31,521 nucleotides of DNA, taken from a virus. Below the pieces are notes generated by a model, which searched no databases, was not told the DNA's origin, and was given only the letters and a program-made list of their open reading frames with translations. Where the stretch lies: the IMG/VR virus record IMGVR_UViG_3300037245_001484, positions 1-31,521 of that record; one strand, given 5' to 3'. This document shows positions 18,059 through 31,521 of this stretch, piece after piece. Made by a program: the position numbers and the translations under genes. Position 1 is the stretch's first letter; every line of letters starts with the position of its first letter.

Positions 18059-19681
<1,623 letters not shown>

Positions 19682-20655: not shown

Positions 20656-21111
20656 ATGAAAGAAGATCTTAAAAACGTGAAAGAATTTTATACAGGTGAT
20701 CTATATAAATCATTAATCAAAAAGGCTGAGAAGTCTAAATATAATGGATTCAATATCCCAACATTAAGTAAACCGGAACTGTTAGCGGTGGTTGGTGATT
20801 TGATCGATGTGTTATCATTAGCTGAAGAGGGTTATGATAATATTCGGGATCACAATGATGAACTCGTTGCTGAGAACCATGAACTAAATCTGGATATTGG
20901 TGGTTTAAATAAACTAATTACTGAACATCATGACGAAACTGATAATGTTGGTGTTGGTACTGTTGGTAGTATTGACGGTGAATCGATTAATGAAACACCT
21001 GCACTGAAAGCTGATGTTGGTAGACCGATTGATGAACATATAACCCAGATAAGTGTTGAAACAATCAATACTGGTCCTATGAACTCACATCAATATAACG
21101 ATTGGAATTAA
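20656..21111 (+). CDS. Hypothetical protein with coiled-coil segment
   Basis: A 151-residue acidic protein with AGGAG (20646-20650) before the ATG. Residues about 30-75 are helical (PELLAVVGDLIDVLSLAEEG...NDELVAENHELN) and may form a coiled coil; the C-terminal half is Gly/Thr/Asn-rich and probably unstructured. No family recognised. Confidence 0.65.
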   Translation: MKEDLKNVKEFYTGDLYKSLIKKAEKSKYNGFNIPTLSKPELLAVVGDLIDVLSLAEEGYDNIRDHNDELVAENHELNLDIGGLNKLITEHHDETDNVGVGTVGSIDGESINETPALKADVGRPIDEHITQISVETINTGPMNSHQYNDWN

Positions 21112-26634: not shown

Positions 26635-26663
26635 TTGACTTCCACTACCGAGTTGAGTATAGT
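26635..26663 (+). promoter_or_regulatory. Strong sigma70 promoter of the large RNA unit
   Basis: TTGACT (26635-26640), exact 17-base spacer, TATAGT (26658-26663). Predicted start about 26670. Unlike the late promoters it should use unmodified host RNA polymerase. Confidence 0.85.
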
Positions 26664-26690
26664 AATACATAACGATTGAGTAATCAATCA

Positions 26691-26706
26691 ATGTTCTTTT
26701 AAAATT
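26691..26706 (+). promoter_or_regulatory. boxA-like antitermination element
   Basis: TGTTCTTTTAAAATT, close to rRNA-leader boxA (core TGCTCTTTAACA in E. coli; GTTCTTTAAAAA forms in other gammaproteobacteria), about 20 bases after the predicted transcription start. Confidence 0.6.
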
Positions 26707-27158
26707 AAATAATTTGGGACGTATGGGTTCCAATGCCTTCGGGTAAGATAAACTGCGGTAACGTAGTGAAACAGGGTAGCTTTCTTACAAGTCCTGCCAC
26801 ATTTTAGTTGTGGACATCTATACAAGCCAAGTTTCTGATTACCTTCACACTTGTGGAGGATTGATGGAAGTTTGTGTTGAATAACCACTGGTCTTACGAT
26901 GGGTGGGTCTAACGTGTGGTGACGAGAAACAACATCCAAACAAACGACATTGAAGAAACAAAGGGTAGATATACGGTTAGAGTTTGTTGTGAACGAAAGC
27001 TGTGTGTCAAACTGAGTGGTGAGGGAACCAATTAGGTATTCCTGAATCGTGAAAGTTGATTCAAGTAACTCGACAGGGTGAAAGGGTATGTCTCGTATTG
27101 TATTTTTACCTTGGAAACTTGGTGAAAGCAGTTGCTGACTGCACGAGGTGGTAAGTTG

Positions 27159-27233
27159 CAAATTATAGCTCAATTGGTAGAGCAGTTGATTAATATTCAA
27201 TTGGTTGGTGGTTCAAATCCATCTCAAAAGCAA
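27159..27233 (+). ncRNA. tRNA-like core inside the large RNA
   Basis: A canonical D-arm (GCTC..GAGC, with AATTGGTA loop), an anticodon-like arm (GTTGA-TTAATAT-TCAAT, triplet AAT) and a canonical T-arm (GGTGG-TTCAAAT-CCATC) are all in place. The acceptor stem is not: only three of seven pairs form and there is no CCA. Instead TTGC (27156-27159) can pair with GCAA (27230-27233). It is therefore a structural module or decayed tRNA, not a working tRNA. Confidence 0.65.
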
Positions 27234-27536
27234 AAGACGGTCAGCACGGTTGAACGAAAGTGACCTAACACCACTCAATGTGAGGTGGGTGATTGATTCC
27301 CTGCAAGGATGATGTCTATTTGTTAGCAACCATTCATAATATCTTAGCGGATATGAACAGCCCGTAAGGGTTGGTGACGTGAAACGCTAGTAGAGTAGTT
27401 TAACTGGATAGTGGTAAAGCAACCACTTTAAAAAATGCGGTCATGATGTTGACCAGTTCGCCCTTAGTGGGAATTGGTGGATAGTTGATTAACGGGTTCC
27501 CGCAAGGAGTTCGGTACGGTCTAAACGAAACATTAT

Positions 27537-27575
27537 GTTGTCGGGAATAGTCTCATCCCTTCGACCAACTTTTTG
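27537..27575 (+). terminator. Rho-independent terminator of the large RNA
   Basis: GTTG-TCG-GGA (27537-27546) pairs with TCC..CGA..CAAC (27556-27569) with small bulges, followed by TTTTT. Confidence 0.75.
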
Positions 27576-28131: not shown

Positions 28132-28206
28132 GCTCTTTTAGTTCAATGGATAGAATATCGGATTACGAATCCGATGATAGGAGTTCGAATCTCTTAAAGA
28201 GCACCA
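28132..28206 (+). tRNA. tRNA-Arg (ACG)
   Basis: Acceptor GCTCTTT/AAAGAGC, anticodon arm TCGGA-TTACGAA-TCCGA, T-loop TTCGAAT, encoded CCA. First tRNA of the cluster. Confidence 0.95.
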
Positions 28207-28209
28207 ATT

Positions 28210-28224
28210 TGATCTTTGAAAAAT
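28210..28224 (+). promoter_or_regulatory. boxA-like element between tRNAs
   Basis: TGATCTTTGAAAAAT, nearly identical to the element at 28846; both resemble rRNA boxA. It lies between tRNA-Arg and tRNA-Val. Confidence 0.55.
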
Positions 28225-28245
28225 AGAATACAGAACGATAGAAAC

Positions 28246-28514: not shown

Positions 28515-28655
28515 ATGAAAAAAATAATAGACACCGTTGAAATTATAGTAGAAGGTGAAAAAATTATTCTAGAAAGCACATCATTGTTCTTTGCGAAAAA
28601 AGAATCAAGTATAGATCTAAATGCTCGTGAATTAATACAACCTTTGAGTTGTTAA
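28515..28655 (+). CDS. Small protein within the tRNA cluster
   Basis: 46 residues (MKKIIDTVEIIVEGEKIILE...) with AAAGGA five bases before the ATG. Strand-rich N-terminus, Lys/Glu-rich. It is the only protein gene I can support between the tRNA genes. Unknown function. Confidence 0.55.
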   Translation: MKKIIDTVEIIVEGEKIILESTSLFFAKKESSIDLNARELIQPLSC

Positions 28656-28789: not shown

Positions 28790-28818
28790 TTGACAATGAT
28801 TAACAATTCAGATACATT
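28790..28818 (+). promoter_or_regulatory. Sigma70-like promoter P2 of the second RNA unit
   Basis: TTGACA (28790-28795), 17-base spacer, TACATT (28813-28818). It forms a tandem pair with P1 as in rRNA operons. Confidence 0.55.
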
Positions 28819-28845: not shown

Positions 28846-28860
28846 TGATCTTTGAAAATT
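28846..28860 (+). promoter_or_regulatory. boxA-like element of the second RNA unit
   Basis: TGATCTTTGAAAATT about 20 bases beyond the predicted P2 start; almost the same as 28210-28224. Confidence 0.6.
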
Positions 28861-29064
28861 GAATATAGATAAATTGGTTTAGCCGAAAACCATAATAAAC
28901 TGAAAACTCGCTGAGTACGTTTTTTGATTAGTAGGCTAACATTTTATCAATGTGGACCACATAGGAATGTTGGTCGTATATTGACGGTTTGATTCAATCG
29001 TCACATATTAACATATAGAGTTGAGGAAACCTTTTGTTGATCTGATGAATCACAAATAATTTTA
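28861..29064 (+). ncRNA. Structured untranslated leader upstream of tRNA-Pro
   Basis: No ORF. Stems include TGGTTT/AAACCA (28875-28892), CTAACATT/AATGTTGG (28936-28973) enclosing the perfect palindrome ATGTGG-A-CCACAT (28950-28962), and GACGGTT/AATCGTC (28983-29002). It may be processed leader RNA or a separate stable RNA. Confidence 0.4.
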
Positions 29065-29142: not shown

Positions 29143-29312
29143 ATTTGATGAATAAGTTGTATGGCGCACTTAGTGTAATCTGAAACGATTCCTATTCGTT
29201 TATCAACCACTAGATCATCTATTTGTAAGAGCGGTTGGCACTTACATCTTATTTAAAGTCCATCCACCAATTTAAATGAGGCTACGGGGAAACATTAAAC
29301 TTCCGTTTACCA
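29143..29312 (+). other. Gap with tRNA-like fragments
   Basis: Contains an anticodon-arm-like hairpin AACGA-TTCCTAT-TCGTT (29184-29200; triplet CCT, U33 present), a hairpin TGTAAG/CTTACA (29224-29246), and two places (29273-29276 and 29309-29312) where ACCA is followed by ATTT, the 3'-end/spacer signature of the real tRNAs here. No T-arm is seen. Decayed or rearranged tRNA genes are the simplest reading. Confidence 0.35.
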
Positions 29313-29317
29313 ATTTT

Positions 29318-29418
29318 GGTTATCGCTTCAATTATCATACCGTAACGGTTCCTGTGATTGATGTCTCACAGAAAACGAAACGAAGAGGTGAGATGCTTCT
29401 GAACGTTTATTGATAACC
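29318..29418 (+). ncRNA. Cloverleaf-like stable RNA candidate A
   Basis: A 7-bp closing stem GGTTATC/GATAACC encloses three hairpins: ACCG/CGGT, CTGTGA/TCACAG and GAAG/CTTC. It has neither a T-loop consensus nor CCA. A second hairpin, GTATCCC-AGAG-GGGGTAC, and a T-arm-like GTTGG/CCAAC follow before tRNA-Lys. Confidence 0.4.
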
Positions 29419-29501
29419 GTTAGTCAGTCGAATAACGAATTCGGTATCCCAGAGGGGGTACAAATGTTGGTGTGACTCCAACCTGATGAAACACTTTTAA
29501 T

Positions 29502-29754: not shown

Positions 29755-29901
29755 TTTTGTCGTCAGCAGATTTATAGTGAAACTGATAGCCTTGTGCAGA
29801 AAACTACTATTGAATTATTCTCTCAGATGGTACGAGTGTATCATTGATTACAGCAGACATTACGGAGTTTCACTGTCACCACAGAAACTCCACATTTTAA
29901 T
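29755..29901 (+). ncRNA. Structured gap with mutually exclusive stems
   Basis: AGTTTCACT (29866-29874) can pair with AGTGAAACT (29776-29784), nine perfect pairs across about 80 nt, or its flank GGAGTTTC (29864-29871) can pair with GAAACTCC (29884-29891). The folds exclude each other. No ORF or tRNA. Confidence 0.4.
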
Positions 29902-29993: not shown

Positions 29994-30068
29994 TCACATG
30001 TAGCTCAATGGTAGAGTAGCGCACTGTTAATGCGTAGGTTGTTGGTTCGAATCCAACCTTGTGAGCCA
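29994..30068 (+). tRNA. tRNA-Asn (GTT)
   Basis: Acceptor TCACATG/CTTGTGA with one mismatch, D-arm GCTC/GAGT, anticodon arm GCGCA-CTGTTAA-TGCGT, T-loop TTCGAAT, encoded CCA. Confidence 0.9.
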
Positions 30069-30077
30069 TTTTTATTT

Positions 30078-30154
30078 GGACCCTTAGTTCAGTTGGTCAG
30101 AACGCCTCGCTCATAACGAGAATGTCATCGGTTCAAGTCCGGTAGGGTCCACCA
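30078..30154 (+). tRNA. tRNA with CAT anticodon (Met elongator or Ile2)
   Basis: Acceptor GGACCCT/AGGGTCC, anticodon loop CTCATAA, T-loop TTCAAGT, encoded CCA. The paired first base excludes initiator tRNA. Whether C34 is changed to lysidine, making it tRNA-Ile, cannot be read from this sequence. Confidence 0.92.
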
Positions 30155-30158
30155 ATTT

Positions 30159-30250
30159 AAAGTTATGAATATACTGGGTATCCACTAACAGACAGTTCCT
30201 ATAGATCGATTATAGATAGACTGAATCCCCTTAAGTTGTGGCATAACTTT
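30159..30250 (+). ncRNA. Cloverleaf-like stable RNA candidate B
   Basis: A 9-bp closing stem AAAGTTATG/CATAACTTT around hairpins TGG-GTAT-CCA, a two-part arm with CAGT/ACTG and CTATA-GATCGAT-TATAG, and a weak CC/GG arm. No T-loop consensus and no CCA. Confidence 0.45.
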
Positions 30251-30255
30251 ACATT

Positions 30256-30496
30256 TTGAAATCAACAATATCTAAGGCGATGTTGCATACAGACCAGTGA
30301 CTATTAAATACCAAATCTTACGGTGAAAATCTTAATTAACTGTGATGTGTTTATGGAGCTACATGAAGTCCGTCCAGAGTGTACAGATACGGTGACATGG
30401 AGAGTAGGAATAATTGGCCTATAATTAACACAAGTGCGGTACACTAATGATTGTGTTAAAGCGGTAATCTGTGATAATGGCAATAGTTGATTTCAA
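30256..30496 (+). ncRNA. Large closed RNA domain
   Basis: An 11-bp perfect closing stem TTGAAATCAAC/GTTGATTTCAA encloses about 220 nt with no ORF, including TTAACACAA/TTGTGTTAA (30425-30459) around a GTG/CAC hairpin. Confidence 0.5.
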
Positions 30497-30505
30497 TTCA
30501 ATGTC

Positions 30506-30542
30506 TGTGGTTTGTAGGATAACCACAATATAAAACACCTAC
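30506..30542 (+). ncRNA. H-type pseudoknot
   Basis: Hairpin TGTGGTT/AACCACA (30506-30527); its loop holds GTAGG (30514-30518), which pairs with CCTAC (30538-30542). Confidence 0.5.
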
Positions 30543-30562
30543 CTCAATTAATTTAACACAAT

Positions 30563-30640
30563 ATGGGTGTTGGGTGCTGGTTACCCATAGTAGTAAGGTG
30601 GGTTCGATTCCCACCAACCATTGGGTTCGATTCCCCTTGA
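30563..30640 (+). other. Tandem orphan T-arms (tRNA-like, degenerate)
   Basis: GGTGGG-TTCGATT-CCCACC (30597-30615) followed by AACCA that pairs with TGGTT (30578-30582), making an acceptor/T-arm minihelix without D- or anticodon arm; then a second TGGG-TTCGATT-CCCC (30622-30636). ATGGGT/ACCCAT (30563-30588) overlaps. Partial duplication of a tRNA end is likely. Confidence 0.45.
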
Positions 30641-30665
30641 TGTGGTCTGAAACTACTTTCGATTT

Positions 30666-30769
30666 ATGAACAGTCTATTTTGACTGAAGTATAATAAAAA
30701 CATACGGTGTCGGTTAACAGATACATCCCTGTGTTTGTTTATTTGTAAAATTCTTCGGGTACTGTTCAT
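30666..30769 (+). ncRNA. Structured RNA domain before tRNA-Glu
   Basis: ATGAACAG (30666-30673) pairs with CTGTTCAT (30762-30769), with an alternative local hairpin CAGTC/GACTG. No ORF. Confidence 0.35.
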
Positions 30770-30781
30770 GATTAATTTATT

Positions 30782-30856
30782 ATCGCATTCGTCTAACGGT
30801 TAGGACACTAGGTTTTCATCCTAGTAATAGGAGTTCGATTCTCCTATGCGATACCA
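30782..30856 (+). tRNA. tRNA-Glu (TTC)
   Basis: Acceptor ATCGCAT/ATGCGAT, D-arm GTCT/GGAC, anticodon arm CTAGG-TTTTCAT-CCTAG, T-loop TTCGATT, encoded CCA. Confidence 0.95.
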
Positions 30857-30861
30857 ATTTT

Positions 30862-31000
30862 GTAGGTTGACCGTAGTGGGTTAAATCTACCTAAACTGAA
30901 TGTGGTGTATAGGAGCACACCACCCCTCAGTATCCATACTTCACTGGTGTGGTGAAATGGGGAGGGAGAGCGGGGTCAGGTCTCGTACTAGGTTTTGATT
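30862..31000 (+). ncRNA. Structured RNA between tRNA-Glu and a tRNA-like element
   Basis: No ORF. Hairpins: GTAG/CTAC around TTGACC/GGTTAA (30862-30890), CTGA/TCAG around GTGGTGT/ACACCAC, TTCAC/GTGAA with a seven-base loop, and GAGA/TCTC. Confidence 0.4.
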
Positions 31001-31004
31001 AATT

Positions 31005-31184
31005 TTGTGGTAGTGTAACGGAATCCCATAGACGAATTGAGATATCTTTTCGGTTAGCGGATCAAAGTATTATAATCTGGGTGCTTTAAGTAGCAGTCCA
31101 AACCAACTAGTTGTGGTTATAATATCGAGCAACACGTGTGACGGAGACTCACTTATTATCGGTTCAAATCCGATCCACAATCCA
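31005..31184 (+). other. Degenerate or split tRNA-like element
   Basis: The 3' end is tRNA-like: T-arm ATCGG-TTCAAAT-CCGAT, CCACAA, T, CCA. TTGTGG, its acceptor partner, occurs twice, at 31005 and 31111. From 31111 the length (74 nt) suits a tRNA, but there is no normal D-arm and the anticodon-like arm GTGA-CGGAGAC-TCAC lacks U33. From 31005 it could be a tRNA split by about 100 nt. Not a normal functional tRNA as read. Confidence 0.45.
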
Positions 31185-31274: not shown

Positions 31275-31287
31275 ATTTTAGAATCTC

Positions 31288-31358
31288 ATCGTTGTCAATC
31301 AACCCCTTTCTTGGTGGTCGAGGCAAGAGCAGACGTGCAATTGGAGTAATCCAGCGAT
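31288..31358 (+). ncRNA. Cloverleaf-like stable RNA candidate C
   Basis: 71 nt between the two tRNA-Leu genes. Closing stem ATCGTTG/CAGCGAT, hairpins CTTG/CAAG, GCA-GACG-TGC and GGA-GTAA-TCC. No T-loop consensus. Confidence 0.35.
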
Positions 31359-31370
31359 AGAACAATTTCC

Positions 31371-31460: not shown

Positions 31461-31521
31461 GGGGATGACATGGTATCGACTGTCATTGAAAGGTAATAAC
31501 TACAAGTAGTGGATGAGCTTC
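31461..31521 (+). ncRNA. ssrA: tmRNA (SsrA), 5' end, cut by the window edge
   Basis: The sequence opens GGGGATGACATGGTATCGAC, matching the tmRNA 5' signature (GGGGCTGATTCTGGATTCGAC in E. coli) in the acceptor strand and the D-loop-like TGG..TCGAC. It begins seven bases after tRNA-Leu, where no protein gene starts. The tag reading frame and the 3' end lie beyond the window. tmRNA rescues stalled ribosomes and tags proteins for degradation. The 3' end should be about CATCCCC-type acceptor plus ACCA. Confidence 0.8.

Follow-up and report, generated by a model that had tools for sequence, protein, structure and literature searches.

An uncultured, divergent T4-like phage has, within its tRNA array, a 627-nt gap between the tRNA-Met and tRNA-Glu genes. 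This gap is probably a row of four or five RNA cassettes, each an autonomous structured unit; they are designated U1 to U5 and would be processed like tRNAs into small stable RNAs acting in trans. The units are closed by terminal stems of their own; U2, U3 and U4 are under selection, and U2 shows covariation. In a related phage U3 is displaced to another place and U5 is replaced by a different sequence, a terminal stem being present in both versions. Transcription, processing and a role in trans, for example as regulators or as protein- or nuclease-binding RNAs, are what the sequence of U1 to U5 would predict.

The DNA analysed is a 31.5-kb virus fragment from IMG/VR (31,521 nt, hereafter the window), with a T4-like gene set comprising UvsX, a DnaB-like helicase, an SbcC-like subunit, a tail sheath stabiliser, GroEL and a gp32-like protein. 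No close isolate of this phage was found in the phage records searched. The array starts at position 28132 and contains at least 13 tRNAs recognised by ARAGORN and a tRNA-Tyr-like gene. The region singled out by the earlier note was correctly placed, the natural limits of the gap being 30155 and 30781. The gap carries no open reading frame of 60 or more amino acids and, apart from a match of a T-arm to a fragment of the tmRNA model, no Rfam family matches it even at E 10. It had been claimed that perfect closing stems of 9, 11 and 8 bp are present and that such long stems are improbable by chance. Indeed, a script found exact stems of 10, 11 and 9 bp, and perfect stems of 9 bp or more (span below 300) number five, against a mean of 0.73 and a maximum of 4 in 60 dinucleotide shuffles; for stems of at least 11 bp, the figures are 2 observed and 0.07 in shuffles. 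The folding energy of the whole gap is ordinary (z -1.65; +1.0 for the gap of the relative), so that it is helices, conservation and covariation, rather than stability, that provide the evidence. One further 11-bp match (30450-30460/30552-30562) competes with stem B of U2; the relative does not preserve it, and it is probably a coincidence. A blastn match of 30403-30430 to a Lak phage (E 0.1) was attributed to chance, since the stretch matched in that phage overlaps a 474-aa frame and has no tRNA in its vicinity.

A related array was found in IMG/VR on contig IMGVR_UViG_3300037245_002170 (L003/L004), and all cross-phage comparisons below are between two sequences, the window and this relative. 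Proteins of the two phages are 81-94% identical, and fourfold-degenerate sites 70.1% identical (432 sites). The relative's Met-Glu gap measures 490 nt, and its alignment with that of the window divides the latter into modules (Table 1). Phage tRNA arrays are usually taken as suppliers of tRNAs; here U3 (97%, p 3e-5 against the fourfold sites) and U4 (91%, p 6e-8) exceed in conservation both the fourfold sites and the flanking tRNA genes (tRNA-Asn 67%, tRNA-Met 86%, tRNA-Glu 79%), and U2 (79%, p 0.002) lies modestly above the fourfold sites. Thus, the loss of conservation and of stems in close relatives, on which the earlier note had let its reading depend, is not seen for U2, U3 and U4; the comparison does not extend to U1, which has no homologue in the relative's contig, or to U5, which cannot be aligned. 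When IMG/VR was searched more widely, using four proteins (gp32-like, DnaB-like, 190-aa and 52-aa) as well as U2 and U3 motifs, this one array and a contig ending at GOLLD were the only relatives to emerge; GTDB genomes, queried with the gp32-like protein and a U2 motif, added none. Two contigs matching a gapped U2 pattern (L025, L026) do so inside open reading frames without tRNAs, that is, by chance. The tRNA-Asn gene (29994-30068, compared with L003 13668-13742) is no better conserved than the fourfold sites, which suggests replacement of this tRNA gene.

Table 1. Features of the Met-Glu gap and of the surrounding array (window coordinates; L004, relative)
Feature	Position	Strand	Remarks
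Divergent GOLLD RNA, embedded tRNA-like body	26650..27560	+	RF02032, 94.7 bits (below the gathering score of 150), E 3.5e-25
Further non-tRNA modules of the array	29147-29312, 29317-29495, 29759-29893, 30861-31184, 31279-31362		
tRNA-Met(CAT)	30078..30154	+	Left border of gap; ARAGORN; Rfam 65.6 bits
U1	30158..30253	+	~96 nt; 10-bp closing stem 30158-30167/30242-30251
U2	30256..30496	+	241 nt; 11-bp closing stem 30256-30266/30486-30496
U2 P2	30267-30272/30279-30284		Inner hairpin
U2 P3	30289-30293/30468-30472		Inner hairpin
U2 P7	30405-30408/30418-30421		Inner hairpin
U2 pseudoknot stem A	30378-30384/30439-30445		
U2 pseudoknot stem B	30425-30433/30451-30459		9 bp
U3, small H-type pseudoknot	30503..30545	+	S1 30506-30512/30521-30527; S2 30514-30518/30538-30542
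U4, two-T-arm module	30551..30664	+	91% identity to relative
U4 possible acceptor	30563-30569/30615-30621		
U4 anticodon-like arm	30571-30587		7-nt loop
U4 T-arm 1	30598-30614		GTGGG-TTCGATT-CCCAC; Rfam tmRNA model positions 347-363, E 3e-4
U4 T-arm 2	~30623-30635		GGG-TTCGATT-CCC
U5	30664..30771	+	~108 nt; 9-11 bp closing stem 30664-30674/30761-30771
tRNA-Glu(TTC)	30782..30856	+	Right border of gap; ARAGORN, Rfam
tmRNA 5' end	31461-31521		Cut by contig end; closes array in window
9-bp terminal stem before CCA	L004 3218-3362		Relative
7-bp terminal stem and T-arm before CCA	L004 3953-4061		Relative
9-bp terminal stem before CCA	L004 5854-5999		Relative

U2 is the largest unit, and its terminal stem is rarely equalled in shuffled sequence (p <0.0025). 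Stems A and B interleave to form an inner pseudoknot that the earlier note had not singled out. The counterpart in the relative (L003 13831-14069) keeps 39 of the 42 helix pairs paired, and all five double changes are compensatory; when the same number of changes is placed at random, 31 pairs and 0.55 compensated doubles are expected, and none of 20,000 runs did as well. These figures come from two sequences only, and the helices were picked with both in view. Stem B was scored after a one-base, structure-aware shift of the alignment, the MAFFT alignment making this stem broken.

The H-type pseudoknot reported previously is present at 30506-30542. U3, as this 41-nt pseudoknot is designated, consists of a 7-bp first stem (UGUGGUU/AACCACA), a 5-bp second stem (GUAGG/CCUAC) and an A-rich third loop. 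The relative possesses a second copy of U3 (contig 18383-18429, 96% over 47 nt, the unit being followed by CCAATTT), which occupies another array position about 2 kb downstream and is absent between Met and Glu. Small H-type pseudoknot RNAs include the preQ1-I riboswitch, the type III antitoxin RNAs and the T4 gene 32 leader. U3 resembles them in its 7-bp and 5-bp stems and A-rich last loop, but it has no Rfam match and no partner gene adjoins it. At least two of the units, U2 and U3, are new RNA folds.

The two T-arms of U4, described earlier as orphans, are real and conserved, both TTCGATT loops being unchanged in the relative, where the first T-stem has one A.C mismatch. The first, however, may not be an orphan. 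Together with a possible acceptor and an anticodon-like arm, it could form a tRNA-like body devoid of a D-arm. In the window this acceptor is AUGGGUG/CAACCAU and contains one mismatch; it reads AAGGGUG/CAACCUU in the relative, which amounts to one compensatory change. Since acceptor-stem searches of this kind often succeed by chance, this body is only suggestive. Neither ARAGORN nor the Rfam tRNA model calls a full cloverleaf at U4, and there is no D-arm. Nor does the gap contain a tmRNA, with its tRNA-like domain and tag reading frame, as only the T-arm matches that model; the phage's actual tmRNA is located outside the gap, and the relative carries a whole tmRNA gene with the tag ADTLAIAA. 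The first T-arm and its left flank resemble the neighbouring tRNA-Glu (76% over 25 nt), a hint that U4 originated from a tRNA. This likeness, and the fast turnover of tRNA genes in the array exemplified by tRNA-Asn, would also be expected if the gap held functionless decaying tRNA genes and spacer with T-arms as relics. We regard such decay as highly improbable as an account of the gap, because U3 and U4 are conserved beyond fourfold sites and tRNAs and because the changes in U2 are compensatory. It is strongly disfavoured for U2 to U4, and may apply to U1, or to U5 with its sequence lost.

U1 has a terminal stem with a shuffle p of 0.003, and its 3' end, UUUACA, is followed by UUUU. In U5, the perfect core of the terminal stem (30666-30674/30761-30769) is 9 bp long and is lengthened to 11 bp by two flanking pairs, one on either side, of which one is G-U; the terminal-stem p is 0.005, and the module folds with a z of -2.2. 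The corresponding sequence of the relative has been replaced (49% identity), so that RNAalifold is meaningless here. It is nevertheless closed next to CCA-ATTT: the terminal stems are ATGAACAGT/ACTGTTCAT in the window and ATAGGT/ACCTAT in the relative, the latter not being significant by itself (p 0.155).

The earlier note had not decided between a single large RNA and a series of small RNAs. The comparison argues for a chain: the relative retains U2 and U4 here, but U1 is missing and U3 is elsewhere in its array, each having been cut out along module borders. A single ornate RNA of the ROOL or GOLLD type, about 600 nt long, folding and perhaps assembling as a unit, would account for the length and place of the gap, its long closing stems and its pseudoknots, and a GOLLD RNA does lie 3 kb upstream. 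ROOL and GOLLD are often found near phage tRNA islands (PMC12286853). A large RNA is nonetheless very unlikely here, given that the relative's gap lacks U1 and U3 and has another U5, that no helix encloses the whole stretch, and that there is no ROOL or other Rfam match at E 10. The ROOL search suggested in the earlier note was unproductive: RF03087 matches neither in the gap (E 10) nor in the window (full model), control genomes being also silent and the sensitivity therefore unproven. The gap shares with ROOL a size of about 600 nt, a location in a phage tRNA array and pseudoknots, but it shows modular gain and loss instead of a single conserved RNA of about 570 nt. Similarly, GOLLD is a large phage RNA beside tRNAs in the same transcript neighbourhood, but in this phage it constitutes a separate locus: the sole match of RF02032 is at 27090-27559, outside the gap. 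The relative's counterpart scores 98 bits and is 89% identical. The tRNA-like body inside GOLLD lacks a normal acceptor stem.

We propose that the chain of cassettes U1 to U5 would be co-transcribed with the tRNAs and excised by tRNA nucleases at AU-rich junctions of the CCA-AUUU type, that the excised cassettes would act in trans as small stable RNAs, with RNAC and RNAD of T4 as the functional model, and that entire cassettes may enter the array, drop out of it or change place in it. The tRNAs and most other array modules have CCA or ACA at the 3' end, with ATTT or TTTT next to it; non-tRNA modules of both arrays end in this way, as tRNAs do, and in several of those from the relative CCA is immediately preceded by a terminal stem (Table 1). 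These shared ends and stems would support separate products. The CCA-AUUU ending is clear for U3 and U5 in the relative and weak in the window, where the junctions are ACA-UUUU after U1, UCAAUUAAUUU after U3 and AUUAAUUU after U5, and where U2 has no ending of the CCA/ACA type. An alternative is that the structures are cis-acting signals for processing, stability or antitermination of a tRNA operon transcript many kilobases long, with no separate products. Strong stems and pseudoknots can act in cis, U3 is mobile as a cassette, and a boxA-like GATCTTTGAAAA leader occurs at two other places of the array. Yet in U2 and U4 purifying selection extends to the loops and to the long internal structure, which exceeds the needs of a processing signal, as does the 241-nt length of U2, and we consider a purely cis-acting function unlikely.

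The closest known parallel to separate cassettes is in T4 itself, whose tRNA cluster encodes two non-tRNA stable RNAs, RNAC (species 1, 139 nt), which carries a T-arm close to the 3' end, and RNAD (species 2, 119 nt), which ends in CACCA. Neither reaches the gathering score of any Rfam family. The literature gives the roles of both as unknown (PMC3014915, PMC9697503), and they are classed as late RNAs validated by northern blot (PMC9697503). In the Met-Glu gap, too, structured RNA other than tRNA lies between tRNA genes of a phage, but with four or five modules in one gap and many more in the array, with a larger U2 that has an inner pseudoknot, and with modules that shift between array positions. 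No tRNA-cluster RNA homologous to the gap turned up when 50,697 phage records were searched by blastn, and U1 to U5 may be grouped with RNAC and RNAD for their architecture and their setting rather than for any homology. The RNAC/RNAD puzzle thereby becomes testable by comparison, with defined modules for expression and knock-out.

Of the other non-tRNA modules of the window's array, three are 93-97% identical to the relative, 30861-31184 is 86% and 29317-29495 only 74% identical. One could imagine, as a rather doubtful extension, that the whole array is a general RNA cassette array which holds, besides GOLLD, tRNAs and tmRNA, more than ten unrelated structured RNAs; these would have borrowed tRNA ends (a terminal stem, often a T-arm, and CCA) for processing and would move as cassettes, possibly serving as decoys or inhibitors of tRNA-targeting host defence. 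Phage tRNAs are able to defeat such defences (PMC10264068, PMC11555353), and by analogy a decoy role for the array RNAs is possible.

Several other elements were observed in the two arrays. An expanded tRNA-like gene of 145 nt in the relative (L004 5854-6002, contig 20864-21008; Rfam tRNA 34.5 bits) has an acceptor, a T-arm and a CAT anticodon arm flanked on both sides by long insertions. A T-arm near a CCA-type end, without a recognisable anticodon arm with U33, is found at L004 3949-4065, 3421-3615 and 3619-3695 and at 31014-31184 of the window. The two copies of the GATCTTTGAAAA leader, which resembles rRNA boxA antitermination sites, lie at 28205-28245 and 28849-28885, one of them shortly after a promoter-like TTGACA-17-TACATT (28790-28818). 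Between tRNA-Ala and the inner leader of the array, a 46-codon open reading frame with a plausible ribosome-binding site (28515-28655) is present in the window and absent at the corresponding place in the relative.
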